Shown: positions 10,962-58,089 of the stretch, in pieces
Layout: every line of letters begins with the position of its first letter
Position numbering within the stretch: the stretch's first letter is position 1
From: Betaproteobacteria bacterium SCN2
Lineage (GTDB): Bacteria > Pseudomonadota > Gammaproteobacteria > Burkholderiales > Thiobacillaceae
NCBI GenBank assembly: GCA_008923285.1
Contig: WBSG01000012.1
Span: forward strand, 1 to 64,000
Length of the DNA stretch: 64,000 nucleotides
Reading direction: 5' to 3'
Made by a program: the position numbers and the translations under genes
The notes under the pieces: model-generated
The model's input: only the letters and a program-made list of their open reading frames with translations
Told to the model about the DNA's origin: nothing
The model's database searches: none

Positions 10962-11453
10962 ATGAAAGTTCTGGGCATCGCCGGCTACAGCGGCGCCGGC
11001 AAGACCACGCTGCTGGAAAAGCTCATCCCGCTGCTGTGCGCCGACGGCGTGCGGGTATCGCTGATCAAGCATGCCCACCATGGCTTCGATGTCGACCAGC
11101 CGGGCAAGGACAGCTGGCGCCATCGCCAGGCCGGGGCAGGCGAGGTGCTGGTGGCGAGCGATGTGCGCTGGGCGCTGATGCATGAAAACGCATCCGCCCG
11201 GGAACCGCAATTGATGGATTTGCTGGAACAGCTTTCGCCGTGCGACCTGGTGCTGGTGGAGGGCTGGAAACGCGATCCCATTCCCAAGATCGAAGTGCAT
11301 CGTGCGGACAATGGCAAGCCCTGGCTGTATCCTGACGACGATAATATTCTGGCGGTGGCGAGCGATGTTGCGCCGCCGGACGACAAGACTTGGCTGGCGC
11401 TGGATGACGTTGCCGCCATCCGCGCTTTCATCAAACAAGAAATAGGTGTCTAA
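10962..11453 (+). CDS. mobB: Molybdopterin-guanine dinucleotide biosynthesis adapter MobB
   Basis: 163 residues from the internal ATG (MKVLGIAGYSGAGKTTLLEK); the longer frame has no ribosome site. The P-loop GYSGAGKTT is at about 7-15, and SLIKHAHHGFDVD and LVLVEGWKRDPIPKIEVHR are MobB signatures. MobB binds GTP and assists MobA in making the guanine-dinucleotide form of the cofactor. It is followed directly by moeA, so it heads the mobB-moeA-moaD-moaE operon. Confidence 0.93.
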   Translation: MKVLGIAGYSGAGKTTLLEKLIPLLCADGVRVSLIKHAHHGFDVDQPGKDSWRHRQAGAGEVLVASDVRWALMHENASAREPQLMDLLEQLSPCDLVLVEGWKRDPIPKIEVHRADNGKPWLYPDDDNILAVASDVAPPDDKTWLALDDVAAIRAFIKQEIGV

Positions 11454-12659
11454 GTGTTGACCGCAGCAGAACTCTTGCAGGAACTTCTCAACCGGGCACG
11501 CCCGCTGGACGAAACCGAAACCGTCAAACTATCAGATGCTTACAACCGTATCCTGGCAAGAGGCATGACCTCTTTCGTCAGCGTGCCGCCGCTCGACAAC
11601 ACCGCCATGGACGGCTATGCCGTGCGCAGCAGGGATTGCCATCAACCCGACAGCAGGCTCAAAGTGACCCAGCGCATCGCCGCCGGCCAGGTCGGCAAGC
11701 CCCTGGGCCATGGCGAGGCCGCGCGCATTTTCACCGGCGCGCCGATCCCGCCGCATGCCGATGCCGTGGTCATGCAGGAGGATACTTCGCTCGACGGCGA
11801 CACGGTGACGGTCTACAGGCTGCCGCAGGCAGGCGACAACATCCGCCGCGCCGGCGAGGACATCCGCCCCGGCACCGACGTGCTGACCCCCGGCACCCGC
11901 CTGAAGGGGGCCGAACTGGGACTTGCCGCCTCTGTCGGCTGCACCGAAGCGAAGGTGGTGCGCAGGCTGAAAGTGGCGATGTTCTCCACCGGCGACGAGC
12001 TGGCCGAACCGGGCACGCCGCTGCGGGCAGGGCAGATCTACAACTCCAACCGCGCCACCCTGGCCGGTCTGCTGACCGGCATTGGCGCCGAGGTCATCGA
12101 TCTCGGCGTGGTGAAGGATACTTTCGATGCGACCCGGACTGCGCTGGAAAAGGCGGCGAAGCGCGCGGACGTGATCATCACCACCGGCGGCGTGTCGGTC
12201 GGCGAGGAGGACCACGTCAAGGCCGCAGTCGAGCAACTGGGCCGCATCGAGATGTGGAAAGTGGCCATGAAGCCCGGCAAGCCCGTGGCCTATGGGCGTA
12301 TCGGTGAGGCCGACTTCATCGGCTTGCCGGGAAATCCCGTCTCGGCCTTCGCCACCTTCTGCCTGTTCGCGCGGCCCTTCCTGTTGAGGCGCATGGGCGC
12401 CAGCCAGGTGTTGTACCGGGCCTACCCGGTGCGCGCGGCCTTCGACTGGGGCAAACCCGGCAACCGGCGCGAATTCCTGCGCGGCCATCTGGTTGCCGGG
12501 CTTGATGGCGCCGGCGAAGTCCGCATCTACCCCAATCAGGGCTCAGGCGTGCTGACCTCGGCGGTGTGGGCGGACGGTTTCGTCGACATCGAAATCGGCC
12601 AGACCGTGCTGCGCGGCGAGTGGGTGCGTTTCATTCCTTTTTCCGAGGTTGTCGAATGA
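11454..12659 (+). CDS. moeA: Molybdopterin molybdenumtransferase MoeA
   Basis: 401 residues, full length. MoeA inserts molybdenum into adenylylated molybdopterin. Signatures: PLDNTAMDGYAVRS (about 43-56), the MoaB/Mog-like domain with FSTGDEL, YNSNRATLAGLL, TTGGVSVGEEDHVK, and GLPGNPVSAFATF. The start is GTG (or the TTG next to it), one base after the mobB stop. The end overlaps the moaD start by four bases (ATGA). Confidence 0.95.
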   Translation: MLTAAELLQELLNRARPLDETETVKLSDAYNRILARGMTSFVSVPPLDNTAMDGYAVRSRDCHQPDSRLKVTQRIAAGQVGKPLGHGEAARIFTGAPIPPHADAVVMQEDTSLDGDTVTVYRLPQAGDNIRRAGEDIRPGTDVLTPGTRLKGAELGLAASVGCTEAKVVRRLKVAMFSTGDELAEPGTPLRAGQIYNSNRATLAGLLTGIGAEVIDLGVVKDTFDATRTALEKAAKRADVIITTGGVSVGEEDHVKAAVEQLGRIEMWKVAMKPGKPVAYGRIGEADFIGLPGNPVSAFATFCLFARPFLLRRMGASQVLYRAYPVRAAFDWGKPGNRREFLRGHLVAGLDGAGEVRIYPNQGSGVLTSAVWADGFVDIEIGQTVLRGEWVRFIPFSEVVE

Positions 12660-43213: not shown

Positions 43214-43552
43214 ATGAACACTCACGATCCCAAACGACGATCTGTATTGATGGGCACCCTTGCTGCCGGCACGGCATTCATGCTGTTCGGTTGCGGGTCC
43301 AAGCAGGAGGAGGCCGCCGTTGAGGCCGGTGAGGAAGCTACGCCGGAAACTGCACAGAACGCTGCTGCATCGCAAATGCCGGATGAGCCGACGCCCAAGA
43401 TGAGCCAGGAAGGCGCACTGTACCAGGCCGAGCCGCTGGACGACCGGAAGTGCCAGGACTGCGGCAACTTCATTGCCGAATCCAAGACCTGCAAGCTCGT
43501 GGAAGGCCAGGTCAGCGAGGAAGGCTATTGCATCCTCTGGGATTGGGCATAA
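43214..43552 (+). CDS. High-potential iron-sulfur protein (HiPIP), lipid-anchored form
   Basis: 112 residues. The N-terminus KRRSVLMGTLAAGTAFMLFGC combines a twin-arginine-like start with a lipobox (LFGC). The cluster domain has the HiPIP cysteine spacing: CQDCGNF, SKTCKLVEG, YCILW. HiPIPs carry one 4Fe-4S cluster and pass electrons between cytochrome complexes and reductases in the periplasm. The export of a folded cluster protein by Tat fits. A paralogue lies 0.9 kb downstream. Confidence 0.9.
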   Translation: MNTHDPKRRSVLMGTLAAGTAFMLFGCGSKQEEAAVEAGEEATPETAQNAAASQMPDEPTPKMSQEGALYQAEPLDDRKCQDCGNFIAESKTCKLVEGQVSEEGYCILWDWA

Positions 43553-44426: not shown

Positions 44427-44780
44427 ATGACGATGAAAGAGCATGATTCCAAACGCAGAACCGTATTGATCGGCACGCTCGCTGCCGGCGCCGCCCTGAT
44501 GCTGCATGGTTGCAAGGGCAAGCAGGAAGAGGCTTCGGCGGACAGCGAGGCCGCGCCTGCGCCCCAAGGCGCAGCACCGGCCGCTCCGCAAGGCGAACGG
44601 CGCATGGACGATGAGCCGACACCGAAAATGAGCAAGGATGGCGCTCAATATCTGGAGACGGCCCAGGGTGACCAGAATTGTTCCGGTTGCGAAAATTTCA
44701 TCGCCGACTCAAAAACCTGCAAGGTCGTGGAAGGGGAGGTCAATCCAAAAGGATGGTGCATCTTCTGGACCGCCGCATGA
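44427..44780 (+). CDS. Second high-potential iron-sulfur protein (HiPIP)
   Basis: 117 residues, paralogue of the upstream HiPIP. It starts KEHDSKRRTVLIGTLAAGAALMLHGC (twin-arginine-like and lipobox) and has an Ala/Pro-rich linker with the cluster cysteines in QNCSGCENF, SKTCKVVEG and WCIFW. GGAAAAGGAGA precedes the start. The PTPKMSKDGAQYLE segment before the cluster is shared by both copies. Confidence 0.9.
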   Translation: MTMKEHDSKRRTVLIGTLAAGAALMLHGCKGKQEEASADSEAAPAPQGAAPAAPQGERRMDDEPTPKMSKDGAQYLETAQGDQNCSGCENFIADSKTCKVVEGEVNPKGWCIFWTAA

Positions 44781-44832: not shown

Positions 44833-45050
44833 TTTTCTTTGCATAAGCGATATGCCATCGGCTTTATCCCGACTGCGAAAATCTCCCAGGAACCTACAAT
44901 TTCCCATTGTTTTTAAATGGAAAACGCTCGTCATGCGAGCACGCGATCAAGTTTCACGCGCTTGTAACTGCGTTCGGCTGAACTACGATTCAACTCCTGA
45001 CACACCGCTTGAAGGTGTCCCGACCAAATTCTTATGCAAAGGAGAAGAAC

Positions 45051-45635
45051 ATGAACAGGCAAACCCGCTTGAGCCTGGTGACGGCCTGCCTTGGCGCCGT
45101 GATGGGAATCGCAGCCCAGGCCCAGCAAGCTCCGACACCCGGATACGGCATGTGGCAACAGCCAAGCCCTGAACAGCAGAGGCAAATGTGGGAAAACATG
45201 CAACGCGGCGGCTACGGACCCGGCATGATGGGTGGGGGCTCGGGTTACGGCATGGGCATGGGCCCAGGCATGATGGGGGGGTATGGCCCGGGTTACGGCA
45301 TGGGCATGGGCCCAGGCATGATGGGCGGCTGGCAAGGGCTGGATCTCAATGAATCCCAACTCGATCAGTGGGACAAGATTCACGACAAGCTGCAGGATAA
45401 GCATCGCAAGCTCATGCGGCAGATGTGGCAAGAGCAGGCCAGGCTTGCCGATCTTTATAACGCCGAGAAGCGCGACCCGACAGCCATCGGCAAGTCCCAT
45501 GACAATCTCGCCAAACTCCAGCGCGAGGCCATCGAAGCCCGCATCGAAGCAGAAAACAAGCTAATCGAGATTTTGACCAAGGAGCAGAAAGCCCAATTCC
45601 GTCGCAACCGGGGCTGGGGCATGATGGGCTATTGA
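45051..45635 (+). CDS. Spy/CpxP-like periplasmic protein with Met/Gly repeats
   Basis: 194 residues from the ATG after AAAGGAGAAGAAC. A signal peptide (about 1-24) is followed by a low-complexity Met/Gly/Tyr region in which GYGMGMGPGMMGG occurs twice, coded by a 36-bp direct repeat. The second half is helical with LDLNESQLDQWDKIHDKLQDKHRKLMRQMWQEQARLADLYNAEKRDPTAI, as in Spy-like chaperones and heavy-metal sensors (CnrX). The Met-rich part could bind copper. The downstream partner gene has the same plan. Confidence 0.82.
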   Translation: MNRQTRLSLVTACLGAVMGIAAQAQQAPTPGYGMWQQPSPEQQRQMWENMQRGGYGPGMMGGGSGYGMGMGPGMMGGYGPGYGMGMGPGMMGGWQGLDLNESQLDQWDKIHDKLQDKHRKLMRQMWQEQARLADLYNAEKRDPTAIGKSHDNLAKLQREAIEARIEAENKLIEILTKEQKAQFRRNRGWGMMGY

Positions 45636-45711
45636 TGCTGGCGGTCGGCGGCTGCCTGAACAGCCAGCCAGGCCTTTCTCGATTCGAAATTGCAGTTCCA
45701 AGGAGTATTAC

Positions 45712-45942
45712 ATGATGGGCGGCTATGGCATGGGCGGTTTTGGATTCGGCGGCATCTTCATGATCTTGTGGTGGATTCTGATCATCGTCGGCATCGTCGT
45801 CCTGCTCAAATGGCTGTTTGGTCCGGGCCTCAGTCACGGCGGTGGCAGCGACCGGGCTCTCGATATCCTCAAGGAACGCTACGCCCGCGGCGAAATCGAC
45901 GAGCAGGAATACCGGCAGAAAAAGCAGGATCTCGGCCAGTAA
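45712..45942 (+). CDS. SHOCT-domain small membrane protein
   Basis: 76 residues. A Gly-rich start and one membrane helix (IFMILWWILIIVGIVVLLKWLFG) are followed by a SHOCT motif (ALDILKERYARGEIDEQEYRQKKQDL). Found often with envelope-stress or copper genes. It lies between two Spy-like genes, with GGAGTATTAC just before its ATG. Confidence 0.85.
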   Translation: MMGGYGMGGFGFGGIFMILWWILIIVGIVVLLKWLFGPGLSHGGGSDRALDILKERYARGEIDEQEYRQKKQDLGQ

Positions 45943-45957
45943 ACGAGAGGGAAACGC

Positions 45958-46581
45958 ATGGATCGGAATAAGGTTTTCTGGGTCGCGCTCTGGCTTGTTC
46001 TCGTTCTCATCACCGGCTATTTTGCATTTTCCCACTCACCGTGGCGCATGGGTTACGGGTCCTGGCATGGCTGGGGAGGCGGGTGGAGTGATGAAAGCGC
46101 CTATCCGGCCTATCGCTCGCGTGGCTGGCATGGCATGGCGCCGGGTTGGAGGGGCGGCTGGCAGGGGGATGGCGGATGGGATGCGGGACGCAATTACGGC
46201 ATGATGGGCCCCTATGGCAGCGCCATGCCCGGAATGGGATTCGGCATGCCAGGCTATAGCATGGTGCCGGGGGCCTTGCCCGAGCTGACGCCAGCACAAT
46301 CCCGGCAATTCGAGCAGTTGCAAGCCGAGCAATTCGAACGCAGCCGCGCATTGATGCAACAGATGTGGCAAGCCCAGGCGCGGCTCAACGAACTCTATGC
46401 AGCCGACAAGCGCGACTGGAACGCGATCCGTGGCGCCACGCAGAAGCTCTTCGAACTGCAACGCCAGCAGCATGATTCGGCCATTGAGCTGCAACAGAAG
46501 ATAGACGGCCTGTTGACCGAAGCCCAGCGCCAGGCATTGGCGCGCTCGCAGCGCGGCTACGGATGGATGGGCAAGCAGTAA
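45958..46581 (+). CDS. Membrane-anchored Spy/CpxP-like protein
   Basis: 207 residues. An N-terminal helix (VFWVALWLVLVLITGYFAFS) anchors a Trp/Gly/Met-rich stretch (about 25-100) and a helical domain (ELTPAQSRQFEQLQAEQFERSRALMQQMWQAQARLNELYAADKRDWNAIRGATQKL) very like the first Spy-like protein. It could sense or buffer metal ions or misfolded protein in the periplasm. It lies 15 bases after the SHOCT gene. Confidence 0.8.
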   Translation: MDRNKVFWVALWLVLVLITGYFAFSHSPWRMGYGSWHGWGGGWSDESAYPAYRSRGWHGMAPGWRGGWQGDGGWDAGRNYGMMGPYGSAMPGMGFGMPGYSMVPGALPELTPAQSRQFEQLQAEQFERSRALMQQMWQAQARLNELYAADKRDWNAIRGATQKLFELQRQQHDSAIELQQKIDGLLTEAQRQALARSQRGYGWMGKQ

Positions 46582-46813: not shown

Positions 46814-46831
46814 TTATTCCCACTCAATTGT
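46814..46831 (-). repeat. attL: duplicated guaA 3' end (codons T-I-E-W-E-stop)
   Basis: On the minus strand the 18 bases ACAATTGAGTGGGAATAA encode Thr-Ile-Glu-Trp-Glu and a stop, the conserved end of GMP synthase. The preceding bases do not encode the rest of the protein (normally a Pro-Pro/Gly segment). This is what an island inserted at the guaA 3' end leaves at its far side. guaA is a known integration hotspot. Confidence 0.78.
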
Positions 46832-47072: not shown

Positions 47073-47750
47073 TCAAGCCACGGCATCTGCAAGTCCGAGA
47101 AAAGCATGATGCAGGCGGACTGGTGACGACGGTGTTGCCCGTGCATGTTGGCTTTCCCAGCTCGGTGCGTCTTCGCAAATATCGGCAGGTTCGAGATGTT
47201 CCACTTTGCGAGAGACGCGTGTCAGGTGTGCGTTGACACCATCCGCAGCTTCCACGGCCGTGCCGGAGAGCACATAGCCGACCATGAAGCCCAACGCGTG
47301 GTTCTGCCCGTATTTTCCGGTGCGGAATCTGTCGATGCCTTCCACTACATACTCACGGCACAGATGCGTATCCGAGCCGGCAATGCGCTTGCATTCGATG
47401 ATCGCGTGAGGATCGTGTTCTTGTGTTCGCAAGAACACTTCGATCAGCATCAGTGGAATGTCGGTTCGACCGTCGGGTATCACAACAGTGCTATGGGATC
47501 GTGACTCAGTGCCTGGGAGCACCACCAACATCTTGCCCCACCGATACCCTTTCGAATTCAACTCGCTGCGCATGCCGTCGCGCAAGCGCTCTGTCATCAG
47601 CACCTCACCTGCCTGCGCGTTGACATCGTTGAAGGCACAGGCACGCTGCCACCCAGCAACCAGCGTGAGCAAGATCGCGGCGACGACTTCCGGCGCCAGC
47701 TCGATGAATTCTCTACCCAAGGTAGCAGGGGCTTCATAAGGGATCCTCAA
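47073..47750 (-). CDS. Putative PD-(D/E)XK-type nuclease linked to a DNA methylase
   Basis: 225 residues, no close family recognised. The segment GRTDIPLMLIEV (Asp97) followed by HAIIECKRIAG (Glu119-x-Lys121) and EYVVEGIDRFRTGKYG fits the core of a PD-(D/E)XK nuclease, as in restriction enzymes. Its start overlaps the methylase stop by four bases (ATGA), so the two are co-translated. It may be the cutting partner of the methylase or a helper; the assignment rests on spacing of a few residues. Confidence 0.7.
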   Translation of the reverse strand: MRIPYEAPATLGREFIELAPEVVAAILLTLVAGWQRACAFNDVNAQAGEVLMTERLRDGMRSELNSKGYRWGKMLVVLPGTESRSHSTVVIPDGRTDIPLMLIEVFLRTQEHDPHAIIECKRIAGSDTHLCREYVVEGIDRFRTGKYGQNHALGFMVGYVLSGTAVEAADGVNAHLTRVSRKVEHLEPADICEDAPSWESQHARATPSSPVRLHHAFLGLADAVA

Positions 47751-50710
47751 ACGTTGCCCCCTGTGAAGCTTTCCGCTACCACGGCATCGGCATCCTCCAG
47801 CGCGGCAACACCCATCCAGTAGCGCTGCGCTGCCGGCTTGATGATCACGACCTCATTGCGTCCGTGGATTCGCAGTTCGCGCTCGCCGCTAAGTGCGGTA
47901 GCAAGCTTGACCTTCAGACGTTTGCCGATGCGAGCAAGAACGTCATTCAGCTCGCCCTCTGGCGTCACCACTTCGACGCTAGTATCACCAGGACCATCTT
48001 CAAGAACAAAACGCACGACTCGGAGCGCAGCGCCTCTTGGCAGGTCGAAAATTTCGGCGCGCATGTGTCGCTTGTTGCGGGCTGAAAGCCAGCCACTGAT
48101 CACACTCAAGAAGACTTCTGCGTATCGGGCAATGTCGGTGTGGGCGTTGGCGCTGGCTACCGAGCTTTCTCTGCCAGCTTGCCATTGCCAACTGGCGCGA
48201 AACAGGCCATCACGGACGACCACGCGATCAGTTTCATCGAGATCGTACAAATCGAATACCGCCTCGTCCAGAGCACGCCAGTCCTCTTCCGTGGCGGCCT
48301 GTTGCTGGAGCCTCTTCTCGACCTGCAACAGCCGTTTGCCGGCCTCCGACTTGACGGCTGGCTTCAGGTCGGGAGTCGGGATTAATGCAACATCGTGCCG
48401 GAGCAGTCGCCGCTTCCAGATACCGAATTCTGATGCGGCCATCAGAAAGAACCAAGACGCAAGCGATGAACTCAGGATCGCGGCGAGAAGGTGTGCAGAC
48501 TGACGATGCGCAACTGGCATCGAAGCGCCGAAGTACGCGTTAGTGAAAACCAAATCACGATCCGCCACGGCCACAATGGCACGCGGCCCTGCACTCAGCG
48601 TTTCCTTGACTATGAGGACAGGTGCCCGGTAGATGTCTCGCGATCGCGGCCACTGCGCCTTCGACAATTTGAACGGGGGTAGCTCATTCGGTATCCGAAA
48701 CGGTTCGATGTCATCGGCTTGCAGCAACTCCAAGCCCTTCAGCTCACGTGCATCGCGAGTTTGATTGGCTGGCAAGCCGCGAATCAGACCGACATGCAGT
48801 TCGGTATCCAACGATGCAAACTGAGCACCCAAGGTGAGATGAGACGATGCCAGCGAATCGAGCAGAGCGACATCGCGCCTGCGCCCTATCGCCGCTGCCT
48901 TCAACTTCATCGGTCGCGCTTCGATGTCGGGCATCGAAAGTTTGATGATGTCGCTGGGCGAGACCTCAAACGAATGAGTTCTTGCGCCGCTTGCAGTCCA
49001 GGGGATTTGTACAACCGTCACTTGGTCCGAAGGCTGCGGCCGATGCCGCGCAAACAGCACAACAGCCGGCATCGTGGCCGTGGCGAATAGCCAACTGCAC
49101 AGGTTCGACAGGTTGACCAACGTTATCGGCGCAAGAAGTCGCATGACATGCTGCGCGGCCGCCATGCCCGTACCGCTTCGGCTGAAGAACGGCATTGCAC
49201 TGAGAATCACGCCAAAGCGAGTCTTCTCATGCGAGAACTCAGCCGCACGCAACACAAAGTCAAGACCTTCGCCACGAGGTTGCGCAGGGATGCCTGCGAC
49301 GCGCGTCTTGCGGCGTGCTTCGGTCCCGGTCTGACCCTTAAAACTCCATGGCGGGTTGCCAACGATGAGATCGAATTGCTTCAACCCCGTCTGCGTCGTC
49401 AAAACCGCTTCGCCTTCATCACTCTGTTCAACGGTGCGGGCGTCCCCGATCAGCAGCGTCTTGCCAATAAGCGGTCGGAATTTCAGTGAGTGTGGTGGCT
49501 GAGGATCGGGATCGAGTTCGAGTGCAGCCAGGTAGAGGCTGAACGCAGCCACACGGACGGCAGCCTCACTGATGTCAACACCGTAGACTTGTTCATACAG
49601 GGTCGAACGAATCAGATCCCGTGTCAGTGGTTGGCCGTCAGCACGCAAATGCACTAGGCGCCGTAGCGCCTCGACCAGAAACACACCAGAGCCGCAGGTC
49701 AAGTCAAGCACCGACTCCTTGCCTGTTAACCCGTCCATCACTTCATCGAGTACTAGCGACACCAAGGACAAGCGCGTGTAGTGCACGCCGTTTCTGACGG
49801 CCTCGATCGAACGCCGGGCGTCAACTCGCGGCTCGGCATGAGCAAATTGCTCGTAGATCGAACTGATGAGCTCGACCGGAATCACATCGAATTGATACGG
49901 GAAGAAGCTCTGCTGCCCGCTCTCTGGATCAACGGCGTCCAAGAAGTCGGCAACGCGCACAAGATGGCTGATGGCCGGCGTGTTCTTAACGGACGACGGT
50001 GGGAACATGTCGCCGTTGAAGGTCTGGCTGAGCCAACCAAAAAGCTGCCCGGTCGCCGTACGATCACGCAGGATCGGTGGCAGCGCCGTATGCCCGCACA
50101 GTCTCTTCAGACGTGTCGCGCTGACGATCTCACGATCAATCAGGTACTGAGTGAAGATCACTCGCCCAATCAGGGCTTGCGCAGCACTGCGCGCGAGATT
50201 TGCTTCGACGAGATCGCACTCCAAGAAGGCCAAATCCGACAACAGCCTTTGGTCGACGCTAGTCTTGCGATCGACCACAGTCGCCTGTGTCCAAAATTGT
50301 CCGGTCTCAATCGACAGTCGCCCCGCCAGGGCGTCCAGTTCGCCGAGAGAGGTCTCGATGTTCTTGAAGGACCGGATCAGATGCTTCTGTGCATCCCCTT
50401 CTTTGACCGGTGCGCCGAAGCCGTTATATAGATCAATGCGCTCGGGTGAGACCACCCACAGCAGCGGTGCAAAGCCTTCATTCCAGACTTCGCGGCGCCA
50501 CTGGCTGACCAGTTCATCGGCCGGGGTGGTCTGCTCGAACTTGAAATAGACAGTCAGCGACGATGGGCTGCGCCAGAGTGCGTCTGGAGAAAAGTCGCGG
50601 CGATGGCGCAAGTTGCGCGCGTCCTGACCCAGATGCAAACCTGCCGCAGGCTGTCCATCCGGGAGATAACCCGTGGCCGCCAGCACCTGCATGAGCGTTG
50701 CGGCGCTCAT
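47747..50710 (-). CDS. Large adenine-N6 DNA methylase (Eco57I/type IIG-like)
   Basis: 987 residues. The AdoMet motif I is SVLDLTCGSGVFLVEALRRLVHL (about 333-355) and the catalytic motif IV is FDLIVGNPPWSF (about 446-457), an NPPW box typical of N6-adenine methylases. The 300-residue N-terminal part (PSSLTVYFKFEQTTPADELVSQWRREVWNEGF and onward) is not assigned; the C-terminal part beyond 600 should hold target recognition (LYDLDETDRVVVRDGLF is similar to the end of Eco57I-like methylases). It overlaps both neighbours by four bases. It may act in restriction-modification or a BREX/DISARM-like defence. Confidence 0.87.
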   Translation of the reverse strand: MSAATLMQVLAATGYLPDGQPAAGLHLGQDARNLRHRRDFSPDALWRSPSSLTVYFKFEQTTPADELVSQWRREVWNEGFAPLLWVVSPERIDLYNGFGAPVKEGDAQKHLIRSFKNIETSLGELDALAGRLSIETGQFWTQATVVDRKTSVDQRLLSDLAFLECDLVEANLARSAAQALIGRVIFTQYLIDREIVSATRLKRLCGHTALPPILRDRTATGQLFGWLSQTFNGDMFPPSSVKNTPAISHLVRVADFLDAVDPESGQQSFFPYQFDVIPVELISSIYEQFAHAEPRVDARRSIEAVRNGVHYTRLSLVSLVLDEVMDGLTGKESVLDLTCGSGVFLVEALRRLVHLRADGQPLTRDLIRSTLYEQVYGVDISEAAVRVAAFSLYLAALELDPDPQPPHSLKFRPLIGKTLLIGDARTVEQSDEGEAVLTTQTGLKQFDLIVGNPPWSFKGQTGTEARRKTRVAGIPAQPRGEGLDFVLRAAEFSHEKTRFGVILSAMPFFSRSGTGMAAAQHVMRLLAPITLVNLSNLCSWLFATATMPAVVLFARHRPQPSDQVTVVQIPWTASGARTHSFEVSPSDIIKLSMPDIEARPMKLKAAAIGRRRDVALLDSLASSHLTLGAQFASLDTELHVGLIRGLPANQTRDARELKGLELLQADDIEPFRIPNELPPFKLSKAQWPRSRDIYRAPVLIVKETLSAGPRAIVAVADRDLVFTNAYFGASMPVAHRQSAHLLAAILSSSLASWFFLMAASEFGIWKRRLLRHDVALIPTPDLKPAVKSEAGKRLLQVEKRLQQQAATEEDWRALDEAVFDLYDLDETDRVVVRDGLFRASWQWQAGRESSVASANAHTDIARYAEVFLSVISGWLSARNKRHMRAEIFDLPRGAALRVVRFVLEDGPGDTSVEVVTPEGELNDVLARIGKRLKVKLATALSGERELRIHGRNEVVIIKPAAQRYWMGVAALEDADAVVAESFTGGNV

Positions 50711-51183
50711 GCCCTGCTCCGAACGGCTTCAGGCGGGAACGGCAACACCGTCTGGCTTGAGACGGGCATGACGGGCAGCATGTGCCGTTGGATTCTGGCC
50801 ATCAACGGTGCCAACGGAATCACGAGCGCGGGTTTGGTCGGCGCTTGGCCGATGTCCTCGACGCCTGCTTCATACAAGGTCGCCTCGGTTGCGGTGATGA
50901 ACACAATGGCGCCATCCAGCGAAGCCGGGCCGCTGGCGGCTAGCAATCGAAAGAGCGAATCGACGCCCGCGCTCAGGGTGGCAATGTGAACGCCAAACGA
51001 ATTCACCAGTTCGTGTGTGACGGCCAACCCCAACAGGTCGGCAAAGGTGAACCGCGCGGCCTTGCCAGTCTTGGAAGACAGATAGGGGATGGCCTTTCGC
51101 CAATGGCGCACAGTCTCAACCGACACGCCTGTGAGCGTGCGAGTTTGGTCCTGCGTGAATTGAATGGCGGTGATTTCAGACAT
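50707..51183 (-). CDS. MerR-like helix-turn-helix regulator of the methylase operon
   Basis: 158 residues from the ATG MSEITAIQFT; the longer frame adds a hydrophobic extension in the upstream region. The N-terminal part (FTQDQTRTLTGVSVETVRHWRKAIPYLSSKTGKAARFTFADLLGLAVTHELV) is a MerR-type winged HTH. The rest (SAGVDSLFRLLAASGPASLDGAIVFITATEATLYEAG) has no clear domain. First gene of the operon, so it likely controls the methylase and nuclease. Confidence 0.82.
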   Translation of the reverse strand: MSEITAIQFTQDQTRTLTGVSVETVRHWRKAIPYLSSKTGKAARFTFADLLGLAVTHELVNSFGVHIATLSAGVDSLFRLLAASGPASLDGAIVFITATEATLYEAGVEDIGQAPTKPALVIPLAPLMARIQRHMLPVMPVSSQTVLPFPPEAVRSRA

Positions 51184-51444
51184 TCTGGTTGCTGACAACG
51201 CAAAATATATCAGCATTATGCACACAATAACAGGTGCTGGCAACATGCAGTGTTCGCTACGCTGTTCAGAAGGCGGCCGTAAGTAGCCTTACTCTACCCG
51301 TGACTCTACCCGTGGCGCTTCTTGTACTTCAATCCCGATACACGCAAGGAGAGCGCTCGTTGCGCCCGTCTGCCCCGCGCAAGCCGTAGGGCTTGCAAAG
51401 TGTCAGAAGTAGCCTCATAATTCTACCAGTCAGGAGATATCGCC
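51184..51444. other. Divergent promoter region between the methylase operon and abiE
   Basis: 260 bases between divergent units. AT-rich at 51195-51235 (ATATATCAGC.., TTATGCACACAATAAC), probably the promoter of the methylase operon. A CAGGAGATATCGCC ribosome site precedes abiEi. No gene is evident. Confidence 0.45.
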
Positions 51445-52041
51445 ATGCAGACCCTCGCCAAACAAGTCTTGGAACACGCCACAGGAGTACCGGAGGGTAC
51501 GCCTTTGGTCGCCAAAGAACTGTTGCACTTGGGCAGCCGCGCAGCCGTAGACCAAGTGTTGTCCCGCTTGGTGCAGCGAGGAGCCCTGCTGCGCGCGGGT
51601 CGTGGTATCTATGTCCTGCCCGTCGAGAGCCGCTTTGGCACCCGTGCGCCTTCGGCTGTCAAGATGGTCGAGGGCTTGGCGAACCAGCGCGGGGAAACCA
51701 TCGTGTCGCACGGTGCCGCCGCCGCCAACGCGCTGGGCCTGACCACGCAAGTGCCGATGCGGGCGGTCTATCTCACGTCCGGCCCCAGCCGCCGCTTGAA
51801 ATTGGGCGCGCAGATGGTCGAGTTCCGGCACGCGCCGATCTGGCAACTGATCTTCCCGGGGCAGGCCGCGGGCGATGTGGTGCGGGCACTGGCCTGGCTG
51901 GGCCCGGAAAAAGCCGGGGAAGCGATCCAAAAACTGCGCGCCAAGCTGCCGGCGTCTGAGCTGAAGGAAGTCGCGTCGGCGCGATCGCGCCTACCGACTT
52001 GGATGGCCCAAGAGGTCAGCGCCCTGGTGACCCATGGCTGA
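51445..52041 (+). CDS. abiEi: AbiEi-type antitoxin
   Basis: 198 residues. A winged-helix start (TPLVAKELLHLGSRAAVDQVLSRLVQRGALLRAGRGIYVLP) and the DUF6088/AbiEi body (GETIVSHGAAAANALGLTTQVPMRAVYLTSGPSRRLKLG) mark the antitoxin and autorepressor of AbiE systems. It overlaps the toxin gene by eight bases. AbiE gives abortive infection against phage and helps keep mobile elements. Confidence 0.87.
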   Translation: MQTLAKQVLEHATGVPEGTPLVAKELLHLGSRAAVDQVLSRLVQRGALLRAGRGIYVLPVESRFGTRAPSAVKMVEGLANQRGETIVSHGAAAANALGLTTQVPMRAVYLTSGPSRRLKLGAQMVEFRHAPIWQLIFPGQAAGDVVRALAWLGPEKAGEAIQKLRAKLPASELKEVASARSRLPTWMAQEVSALVTHG

Positions 52042-53056
52042 GTTCTTCCAGCTCTCCATCGCTGAACGCCTAGACGCGCTCAACGCCGCAGCTAACGTAT
52101 CGGGCCTGCTGCCCCATCTGCTGGAAAAAGATATCTGGGTGGTCTGGTCGTTACGGCACCTCTTTGCTGGCCCCTATGCTGACCACTTAGTATTCAAGGG
52201 CGGCACGTCCTTGTCGAAGGCTTATGGCGTCATCCGGCGCTTCTCCGAGGACGTGGATCTGACCTACGATATCCGCGCCATTGCCGGCGATCTGGTGGGC
52301 GATGCTGATACGCCACTGCCGGCCAGCAAGAGCCAGGAGAAGAAGTGGAGCAAGGAGATTCGTGCGCGCCTGTCGGACTGGGTCGGCGCCGAGATCGTGC
52401 CCCGTCTCAAGCATGACCTTGAGCAGCAGGGTCTGTCGGCAACCGTACGGGCCGAGGGCGACAAAGTATTCATCGACTACGCACCGCTGGCCACCGGCAC
52501 CGGCTATGTCGCGCCCGCCGTCATGTTGGAGTTCGGCGCCCGCTCGACCGGCGAGCCCAGCGAACCGCGCGTCATCCGCTGCGATGCGGCCGCGTATCTG
52601 CAGGGGGTAGAGTTTCCGATCGCCACACCGCAGGTCATGCGCGCCGAGCGCACCTTCTGGGAGAAGGCCACGGCGATTCACGTTTTCTGTGCACAAGGCG
52701 AGTTCCGGGGTGGTGACCGCTTCGCGCGTCACTGGCACGACGTGACAAGACTGGATGCCGCCGGCTTCGCCGACGCAGCCATCGCGGACAAAGCCCTCGC
52801 TCGCGCAGTTGCCGAACACAAGAGCGTGTTCTTTGCAGAAAAGAACACGCATGGCGATGTCATCGACTATCACGTTGCCGTCGCCGGTGGGCTCCAGCTT
52901 GTACCTGATGACAACGCGTTGGCCAAATTGGCTGACGACTATCAGCACATGGTCGATGACGGTTTGTTTCTCGATGATGCCGAACCTTTCGACGCTCTGC
53001 TGGAGCTATGCCGAGCAATTCAACAGAAAGCCAATGCAAAGCAACCACCACAATGA
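52034..53056 (+). CDS. abiEii: AbiEii-type nucleotidyltransferase toxin
   Basis: 340 residues, DNA polymerase-beta-like nucleotidyltransferase. The GGTSLSKAYGVI loop (56-67) and RFSEDVDLTYD (69-79, catalytic Asp pair) are the key motifs. RTFWEKATAIHVFCAQGEF and ARHWHDVTRL in the second half are usual for AbiEii. Such toxins add nucleotides to tRNA or related targets and stop growth unless the antitoxin acts. Confidence 0.9.
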   Translation: MAEFFQLSIAERLDALNAAANVSGLLPHLLEKDIWVVWSLRHLFAGPYADHLVFKGGTSLSKAYGVIRRFSEDVDLTYDIRAIAGDLVGDADTPLPASKSQEKKWSKEIRARLSDWVGAEIVPRLKHDLEQQGLSATVRAEGDKVFIDYAPLATGTGYVAPAVMLEFGARSTGEPSEPRVIRCDAAAYLQGVEFPIATPQVMRAERTFWEKATAIHVFCAQGEFRGGDRFARHWHDVTRLDAAGFADAAIADKALARAVAEHKSVFFAEKNTHGDVIDYHVAVAGGLQLVPDDNALAKLADDYQHMVDDGLFLDDAEPFDALLELCRAIQQKANAKQPPQ

Positions 53057-56278: not shown

Positions 56279-56760
56279 TTTCGAGTTCAGCGTCCGCGTT
56301 GGACGCATTTCCGTAAAAGCGCCATTGCGGCTTCGTGCATCGGCGGCAAGCCGCTTTCACGAATCTGCGATTCCGTGGAACGCAGTCAATGCGCGGAGCC
56401 GGCTTCGTGCATCCGTTGTTTTACAGGGAAGCGGTTTCGCTATTTTCAGGGATCGGGAAACTCCGTGCGTCCACCGGCTGATGCCGGGGCGCGCTGTCGT
56501 GCTGCGCATCGAGCCACCCTTGGCGTCTCGCCCCTTCGGCTTCCATCACTGACGCCTGCGCGCTTCGCTTGCTATAGCGGGCAACGGTGGGGGCTGGCTT
56601 GCTGTGCCCTTCACCTTATCACGGCGTTCTCGCCGTCAAGGTCTGCGCGCGCCTTGCGCGCTGGCGTCCTGCGGCCGTCTGCGAACCCTGACGGCTGTGC
56701 TGCGCCGTGCCTCTCGCGGTCTCGGGCAATCCCGCCCGAAATCCTTCCAAGGAGAAGACC
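56279..56760. other. Non-coding leader of the first DUF2958 gene
   Basis: 482 bases with no convincing gene. CGGCTTCGTGCATC occurs twice (56328-56341 and 56400-56413). CCAAGGAGAAGACC ends the leader. Confidence 0.45.
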
Positions 56761-57108
56761 ATGACGAAGCTCATCACCGACGAACAACGCGCACAACTGC
56801 TGACCAACGGCCGGCAGTCCCTCGAAAACGAAAACTTCGACCCACCACCCGTGGTCAAGTTGTTCACCCCTGATGCGGGCGCGACCTGGCTGCTCACCGA
56901 GATCGACCCGGACGACCACGACCATGCTTTCGGGCTGTGCGATCTGGGGCAGGGTTTTCCGGAGCTGGGCTATGTGAGCCTGGCCGAGCTGCAATCCGTG
57001 CGTGGCTGTCTCGGCCTTGCGGTCGAGCGGGATCTGCACTTCATTGCGACGAAGGCGATCAGTGCCTATGCGCGTGAAGCGCGGCTCGCGGAGCGCATCG
57101 TGGCGTAG
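56761..57108 (+). CDS. DUF2958 protein (copy 1)
   Basis: 115 residues. Core: PPPVVKLFTPDAGATWLLTEIDPDDHDHAFGLCDLGQGFPELGYVSLAELQSVRG and ERDLHFIATKAISAYAREAR. DUF2958 is typical of ICE backbones; function unknown. A paralogue lies about 630 bases downstream, with the XRE gene between them on the other strand. Confidence 0.92.
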   Translation: MTKLITDEQRAQLLTNGRQSLENENFDPPPVVKLFTPDAGATWLLTEIDPDDHDHAFGLCDLGQGFPELGYVSLAELQSVRGCLGLAVERDLHFIATKAISAYAREARLAERIVA

Positions 57109-57438: not shown

Positions 57439-57741
57439 CAGATCGTTTCATGTAAAACAACGATGACACCTGATCGCGCCCTATAGGACTACAATCTATA
57501 GTGTTCATTTGTAGTCTTCCCTGCTTGAATTTGTTGCGGGCGTGTCTATGCTGAAAGCCGCTTTTACTGACATCATGGCTTCCGTACTTACGCAATCGCC
57601 GATTCGTGTACCCACGGATTCGGTGAAATCCGCTTTGGCAATTTGGTGCGGAAGCGCACTTGTACATTCAAGTTTTGACTCATCGACACGTTTGCGCAAA
57701 ACTGACGCCGCGTTGATCGTGACCCCTTGCGCGCAACAACC
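57439..57741. other. Divergent regulatory region between the XRE and DUF2958 genes
   Basis: 303 bases. It contains the dyad operator and, on the plus strand, a small frame coupled to DUF2958. The rest is lower in GC than the surrounding backbone, as expected for promoters. Confidence 0.5.
57481..57516. promoter_or_regulatory. Candidate operator of the XRE controller
   Basis: GACTACAA (57487-57494) and its exact inverse TTGTAGTC (57509-57516) are 14 bases apart. CTATAG occurs at 57481 and 57496. GACT/AGTC halves recall controller-protein C-boxes. It starts 43 bases upstream of the XRE start. Confidence 0.6.
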
Positions 57742-57745
57742 ATGA
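57542..57745 (+). CDS. Possible small coupled ORF upstream of DUF2958 copy 2
   Basis: 67 residues (GTG start; an in-frame ATG is two codons later). Its stop overlaps the DUF2958 ATG as ATGA, which suggests translational coupling. There is no known motif and no good ribosome site, so it may be spurious. The peptide has several Thr/Ser and a SFDSSTRLRKTDAA segment. Confidence 0.25.
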   Translation: MSMLKAAFTDIMASVLTQSPIRVPTDSVKSALAIWCGSALVHSSFDSSTRLRKTDAALIVTPCAQQP

Positions 57746-58089
57746 AACCACTCATCAACGACGATCACCGCAGCCAACTGCTGGACAACGGCGCTGCCGC
57801 CGCGCGTGGCGAGAAGCGTGACCCGCTGCCGGTCGTCAAGCTGTTCACCCTGGACGCACATGCGACCTGGCTGTTGACTGAACTCGATCCCAACGATGGC
57901 GACACGGCCTTCGGCCTGCTCGACCTCGGCATGGGCATGCCGGAACTCGGCTATGTGAAGTTGTCCGTCCTGGAAGGCATTCGCGGGCCACGGAACCTGG
58001 CCGTTGCACGTGATCTGCATTTCACGCCAAAGCGGCGACTGTCCGAGTACGTCCGGCAGGCGCGAACCGATGGATCAATCAACGATTGA
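57742..58089 (+). CDS. DUF2958 protein (copy 2)
   Basis: 115 residues, paralogue of copy 1: LPVVKLFTLDAHATWLLTELDPNDGDTAFGLLDLGMGMPELGYVKLSVLEGIRG and ARDLHFTPKRRLSEYVRQAR. The two copies share most core residues but differ at the N-terminus, so the duplication is not recent or has been under different selection. This copy is under the divergent region with the XRE operator. Confidence 0.9.
   Translation: MKPLINDDHRSQLLDNGAAAARGEKRDPLPVVKLFTLDAHATWLLTELDPNDGDTAFGLLDLGMGMPELGYVKLSVLEGIRGPRNLAVARDLHFTPKRRLSEYVRQARTDGSIND

Follow-up and report, generated by a model that had tools for sequence, protein, structure and literature searches.

What kind of system is encoded by three overlapping genes, for a helix-turn-helix (HTH) protein, a 987-residue DNA methylase and a small protein of 225 residues, that lie at the edge of a mobile element in Betaproteobacteria bacterium SCN2? 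The window studied here is the first 64,000 nucleotides of contig WBSG01000012.1, and the three genes are read from its minus strand, flanked by an attachment (att) site at 46814 on one side and by a divergently oriented AbiE pair (51445-53056) on the other. We conclude that the operon probably is a self-regulated two-enzyme restriction-modification system with predicted methylase and nuclease activities. A preliminary description of this DNA had proposed one candidate defence operon, in which a Type IIG-like methylase is joined by a MerR-like regulator and a small separate nuclease, in a layout that could not be named. The proposal has gained from family scans, conservation, structure models and gene order, with defence as the presumed role. 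The layout can be named: it is the order regulator, methylase (M), nuclease (R) of controller-regulated restriction-modification systems, with a methylase of the Type IIG type in the M position.

Organization of the operon

The first gene (50707..51183, minus strand) codes for a MerR-like HTH regulator of 158 residues, whose match to Pfam MerR_1 (2.2e-4) is just above the cut-off of that family. It is followed by the gene of a gamma-class N6-adenine DNA methyltransferase of 987 residues with Type IIG/IIL layout (47747..50710, minus strand) and by the gene of a predicted separate small PD-(D/E)XK-type nuclease of 225 residues, which begins with a TTG codon (47073..47750, minus strand). The coordinates given earlier for the three frames, and the 4-base overlaps between them (ATGA and TTGA in the window), proved exact. 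The HTH start codon, ATG at 51183, is backed by relatives, in which the codons upstream vary and a conserved palindrome is found at constant spacing from the ATG. The ATG at 51246, which would give a longer version, is not conserved.

Recurrence of the gene order

A scan in which each species was represented by one genome retrieved 34 close loci from beta- and gammaproteobacteria, 33 of them complete, with methylase identities of 54-93%. The three-gene order that the preliminary description had proposed to look for recurs in 30-33 of the 33. A homologue of the 225-residue protein is encoded directly 3' of the methylase in every complete locus (intact in 32, broken in L027), and a detectable HTH gene is located 5' of the methylase in 31, being truncated in L004. 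The overlaps have been kept as well: the value is -4 at all 30 HTH-methylase junctions with an intact HTH gene and at 32 of 33 methylase-nuclease junctions, and the nuclease retains its TTG start in 30 of 33 loci. When 398 Pseudomonadota genomes were scanned with the methylase and nuclease profiles, both matched the same seven genomes, with the genes side by side. The three-gene arrangement occurs far above chance.

A distant set was collected from genomes, plasmids and viral contigs by searching with the methylase only (22-37% methylase identity). The small protein is encoded downstream of the methylase in 19 of these loci and is missing from two (L052 and L058), while one more locus ends at a contig end; the methylase-nuclease pairing holds down to ca. 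20% identity. The earlier concern that homologous methylases might occur alone thus applies to two solitary cases, the methylase being otherwise nearly always accompanied. Both solitary relatives (L052:7971-11048 and L058:5711-8785) are on viral contigs, and in L052 a Dam-like methylase gene is located directly upstream. No relative was found in phage records and no close relative on viral contigs. A second, distant methylase (28% identity, open frame of 1133 residues) is present in the SCN2 genome itself, at G000:C20:60390-60989.

The methylase is intact wherever the nuclease is intact. Conversely, L027 combines an intact methylase with a broken nuclease, and L004 has both enzymes with a broken HTH gene; retention of the methylase in these two loci is as expected if it protects the DNA. 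Separate, linked methylase and nuclease genes are the arrangement of Type II restriction-modification systems with separate M and R proteins.

The small protein as a probable nuclease

Alignment of 27 diverse members revealed that E49, E119, K121, Y159 and H215 are invariant and that T53 and D97 are nearly so. The E119-C-K121 catalytic motif is encoded at 47388..47396 (minus strand; E and K invariant in the 27 relatives) and D97, part of a PDGRTD motif, at 47460..47462 (minus strand; invariant in 13 relatives and at least 90% conserved in 27). The catalytic residues are retained to ca. 20% identity. The motifs pointed out in the preliminary description, D97...E119CK121 in this protein and NPPW and motif I (D336xxCGSG) in the methylase, are all present and conserved.

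In the AlphaFold model of the protein (predicted local distance difference test, pLDDT, 83.8; predicted template modelling score, pTM, 0.83) E49 opens the first core helix (49-66), D97 stands just before strand 98-102, and E119 and K121 are within strand 116-123. The predicted structure, an alpha-beta core whose neighbouring strands carry D...E-x-K, follows the pattern of the PD-(D/E)XK superfamily. VIA-align, applied to Foldseek candidates, placed McrC (7.0), BstYI (6.8) and BglII (6.8) at the top, followed by Can2, NucC, PspGI, EcoT38I, PaqCI, BstEII and BbvCI; most of the rows are PD-(D/E)XK enzymes and a few are unrelated. Structure prediction had been named earlier as the way in which the nuclease idea might fail; the model resembles a nuclease fold by VIA-align, not by Foldseek alone. 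No family in Pfam, PADLOC or NCBIfam matched the protein, and a sequence search of solved structures yielded none for the nuclease profile and weak matches only for the methylase. With an intact PD-(D/E)XK active site (E49, D97, E119, K121), as required of a Type II R protein, and a fold assigned by VIA-align, the 225-residue protein is most likely a PD-(D/E)XK-type nuclease.

A Type IIG-like methylase

The methylase matched Pfam families N6_Mtase (2.7e-12), Eco57I (9.8e-9) and MmeI_Mtase (1.2e-8) and the PADLOC model REase_MTase_IIG (1.2e-43); the latter, a Type IIG model, was matched by all 30 aligned members. Residues 152-832 of its AlphaFold model (pLDDT 83.9) align with MmeI (VIA Z 24.2), and VIA Z was 26.6 for CamA, 23.0 for LlaGI, 22.5 for DrdV and 21.6 for BrxX; these five were the best matches. 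As modelled, the layout is a helical spacer, a gamma-class methyltransferase, a target-recognition domain (TRD) and a C-terminal extension. The catalytic domain (residues 305-560; 49031..49798, minus strand) contains D336xxCGSG and NPPW and is delimited by conserved columns and structure matches. The TRD (residues 600-830; 48221..48913, minus strand) is the most variable region; it was placed by a weak TaqI_C match at 662-778 and by structural overlap with CamA and MmeI that extends to residues 824-832.

The large N-terminal part had initially been left unassigned. Its helical spacer is now matched by structure, and residues 1-145 (50276..50710, minus strand) can be read, from conservation and the full-length model, as a degenerate PD-(D/E)XK-like region with the pattern PD43-x11-Y55-F-K57. 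D43 and Y55 are each found in 25 of 30 relatives and K57 in 23, and in none of the 30 is D or E present at the acidic position of ExK. The modelled order is strand-strand-helix-strand (strands 44-47 and 53-58, helix 65-77, strands 83-87 and 91-95). We infer that the N-terminus is a degenerate nuclease domain without the catalytic glutamate. Alignment of the methylase profile with an MmeI-like protein covered only residues 158-456 and neither supports nor excludes N-terminal homology. A gamma-class N6 methyltransferase and a TRD are joined in one chain, as in Type IIG enzymes, and an active cleavage domain appears, from the sequence, to be missing from that polypeptide.

Regulator and operator

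An exact GTTGnnnnCAAC palindrome is present at positions -16 to -5 relative to the HTH start in 17 of 18 core operons, and with one mismatch in the 18th; the background of exact matches is 7.4e-5 per position. In the window this operator reads GTTGTCAGCAAC (51188..51199, minus strand). The inner four bases of the palindrome are variable and the flanking sequence is poorly conserved. In each of the 18 operons a poorer copy, with 1-3 mismatches, is matched best at -60/-61; in the window it corresponds to GTTGCCAGCACC (51233..51244, minus strand). A consensus scan predicts a σ70-like promoter, TTGCCA-17-CATAAT (51215..51243, minus strand; 10 of 12 positions), whose -35 box is overlapped by the distal operator copy and whose -10 box is located between both copies. 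Conserved palindromes at a constant promoter position would suit regulation of the C-protein kind, though the HTH protein, whose binding is predicted, is MerR-like and not of the classical C-protein type. It is probably the autoregulator of the operon.

Distant clades, read by eye, carry other regulators in its place, i.e., an XRE-S24-like protein (L054), small XRE-like proteins (L038 and L059) and an AbiEi-like protein (L060). Since the regulator is swapped, the methylase and the nuclease form the two-gene core, and the conserved operator together with the change of regulators fits a regulatory role of the HTH protein. Upstream of the HTH gene in distant clades L047, L061, L048 and L050 there are apparently different palindromes, for example GGGGTTAACCCC in L047; these may serve as clade-specific operators.

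How the nuclease may find its sites

We propose that expression of the operon is limited by the HTH protein through binding to the GTTGnnnnCAAC sites at the promoter. The methylase, to judge from its fold and motifs, would read a DNA sequence via its TRD and methylate adenine there. The catalytic glutamate of its nuclease-like N-terminus appears to be lost, and the small PD-(D/E)XK protein encoded next to it would cut unmethylated DNA instead. Last in line, the nuclease would be produced through translational coupling from its weak TTG codon, and may dock on the methylase. The strict linkage, the kept catalytic residues and an MmeI/DrdV/LlaGI-like methylase with the glutamate lost in 30 of 30 members support the reading of a split restriction-modification system. 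As to the way in which cleavage is targeted, we lean towards a nuclease that is steered to DNA by the methylase, which would make the pair a Type IIG enzyme in two parts, over a nuclease that reads the sequence alone.

Natural mosaics bear on this choice. L008 and L015 are nearly identical integrative and conjugative elements (ICEs), whose operons are ca. 95-99% identical outside two blocks, one covering methylase residues ca. 469-850 (the TRD; identity down to 63%) and one covering nuclease residues ca. 46-165 (down to 73%). In L008 the blocks are at L008:9405-10550 and 11096-11455. A third locus, L094, has a TRD of the L015 type (90-97%) and a nuclease core of the L008 type (99-100%). The comparison of L008 with L015 had suggested that TRD and nuclease core are always exchanged together; L094 refutes this as a strict rule. 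The two reassort as separate blocks, and one nuclease core is found with two TRD types. If these TRDs differ in target, such a nuclease cannot read DNA alone, and the pairing in L094 counts for its direction by the methylase. The three mosaics allow a direct test of whether the nuclease borrows the specificity of the methylase.

Several observations count against the overall reading. Foldseek alone, used with the nuclease model, returned nothing significant, and VIA Z of 5-7 is in the range of common arrangements; for the nuclease assignment, motif conservation weighs more than these moderate values. The reading of the methylase N-terminus is based on the full-length protein. Finally, nuclease residues 49-97 covary weakly with the TRD even after relatedness is taken into account (partial r 0.35, p 0.0025; 0.30 and 0.0075 when L008 is left out), as might be expected of a nuclease that either reads DNA itself or is in contact with the TRD.

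This covariation is one argument for an ordinary Type IIP-style pair, in which a nuclease dimer recognises the same sequence independently and the methylase merely protects. Two hundred and twenty-five residues are enough for a complete enzyme of this kind, the closest folds include BstYI and BglII, and in L008 the TRD and the nuclease core (46-165) both differ from those of otherwise near-identical ICE relatives. However, the L094 mix would leave sites unprotected unless both TRDs share specificity, and the conserved nuclease-like N-terminus kept on the methylase is left unexplained, so that we regard such a pair as unlikely, if the strongest of the alternatives. Extending the idea of a methylase-guided nuclease, we tentatively suggest, as possible rather than probable, that the operon represents a widespread split Type IIG lineage. 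The dead nuclease domain of the methylase would dock the separate nuclease, and recombination would shuffle TRDs and nuclease cores independently of each other, which would change restriction specificity with no need for the nuclease to evolve again.

Mobile element setting

The genes had been described as next to AbiE and at the edge of a mobile element, and both statements hold. The neighbouring pair matched PADLOC AbiEi (1.8e-65) and AbiEii (6.9e-101), and a copy of the guaA 3' end at 46814..46831 (no strand assigned; one match in the window, 0.01 expected) is the att site at the distal ICE end, ca. 240 bp beyond the end of the operon. Elsewhere in the genome the att sequence occurs only once, at the end of guaA on contig C11, with a tyrosine integrase and trb-type conjugation genes behind it (G000:C11:12872-15987). 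Since that copy is at guaA with the integrase adjacent, the operon is at the far ICE end, opposite the integrase; it is carried by an ICE that is integrated at the guaA 3' end and has its ends on two contigs. In the distant relative L048 the order is guaA, integrase, HTH, methylase, nuclease. Other relatives are found in conjugation modules of PFL_4706-type ICEs beside RadC, or next to TniQ/AAA transposition genes; others are on plasmids, and others again have HipA, AbiEii or an MmeI-like gene nearby. Such mobile, defence-rich contexts count for the restriction-modification reading.

AbiE was considered as a component of the system and rejected, because no homologue of the AbiEi or AbiEii of the window is found near the 34 relatives; the pair adjoins the operon in the window only, as a neighbour. 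In L031, L015, L019, L022 and similar loci, the operon is located between RadC and the conjugation genes of PFL_4706-type ICEs, with an AbiEi_3 gene ca. 6 kb downstream; AbiE is thus met again in these elements, though at a distance.

Restriction-modification systems can act as addiction modules, and the operon might mainly serve its ICE, by post-segregational killing or transfer control, and not phage defence. Its location at the end of this ICE, and the presence of relatives within the conjugation modules of others, would suit such an element-maintenance cassette. Its occurrence beside TniQ/AAA genes, on plasmids and elsewhere without a common element backbone indicates, however, that it is not bound to one transfer system, and we find this role improbable.

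Some further genes of the window were noted by eye. Just outside the att site there are two short genes for Tat-type, HiPIP-like iron-sulphur proteins (43214-43552 and 44427-44780) and, near them, genes for small glycine-/methionine-rich, metal-type periplasmic proteins (45009-46581). The ICE backbone contains two similar DUF2958-like paralogues (56707-57108 and 57727-58089).

Comparison with known systems

The methylase shares with PglX/BrxX of BREX a methylase fold over ca. 595 residues (VIA Z 21-22) and the lack of an active nuclease domain, and the combination of an HTH protein with an N6 methyltransferase recalls, through weak matches, MAD1-MAD2 of MADS. We nevertheless set aside, as the least probable reading, a defence of the BREX or MADS kind, which is linked to methylation and does without ordinary restriction, or else an abortive effector, with a nuclease set free to damage DNA once something such as a DNA mimic of a phage blocks the methylase. 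The BrxX/PglX match, weak PADLOC mad2 matches of all members and a TTG start and tight regulation suggestive of a dangerous product speak for it, but no BREX partner genes such as PglZ and BrxC, and no MADS partner genes, adjoin the operon (its flanks are att, 240 bp away, and AbiE on the other side), BREX is without this small nuclease, and the NCBIfam scores are far below the cut-offs (35 versus 400 bits for BREX-2 PglX and 16.8 versus 720 bits for MAD2). The likelihoods that we attach to the various readings overlap, because a Type IIP-style pair is a sub-case of restriction-modification and a maintenance role is compatible with it.

We found no description of the operon in the open literature searched, which is weak evidence of novelty, since subscription literature was mostly outside the search. 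Annotation tools label such methylases as Type IIG enzymes that stand alone and list the nuclease as a hypothetical protein, and PADLOC is without a model for it; the methylase-nuclease pair, its regulator and its operator are now defined across many genera. If our reading is true, the nuclease represents a family not listed so far, and the operon marks an evolutionary path that links fused Type IIG enzymes with restriction systems made of two proteins.

With controller-regulated Type II systems the operon has in common an autoregulator-like HTH protein, palindromic operators at the promoter and separate M and R genes. It differs in that the regulator is MerR-like and 158 residues long, the order is C-M-R with 4-base overlaps, and the M protein has the size and layout of a Type IIG enzyme. 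Type IIG enzymes are by definition R and M fused in one chain (PMC3874165, PMC4081073). The Type IIG/IIL enzymes MmeI, DrdV, BpuSI and Eco57I resemble the methylase in having a helical spacer, a gamma-class methyltransferase and a TRD in a chain of ca. 1000 residues with an N-terminal PD-(D/E)XK-like region; in contrast to them, the operon methylase is without the N-terminal catalytic glutamate in 30 of 30 members and nearly always has a separate nuclease gene next to it. For Haloferax volcanii, HVO_A0006 and HVO_A0237 have been put forward as a split Type IIG pair; 231 genes separate the two, and the nuclease corresponds to a fragment of the N-terminus of a Type IIG enzyme (PMC4389544). There, too, a nuclease on its own and a Type IIG methylase lacking one are proposed to cooperate, whereas here the nuclease gene comes next in the same operon and the methylase still bears a putative degenerate nuclease domain of its own.

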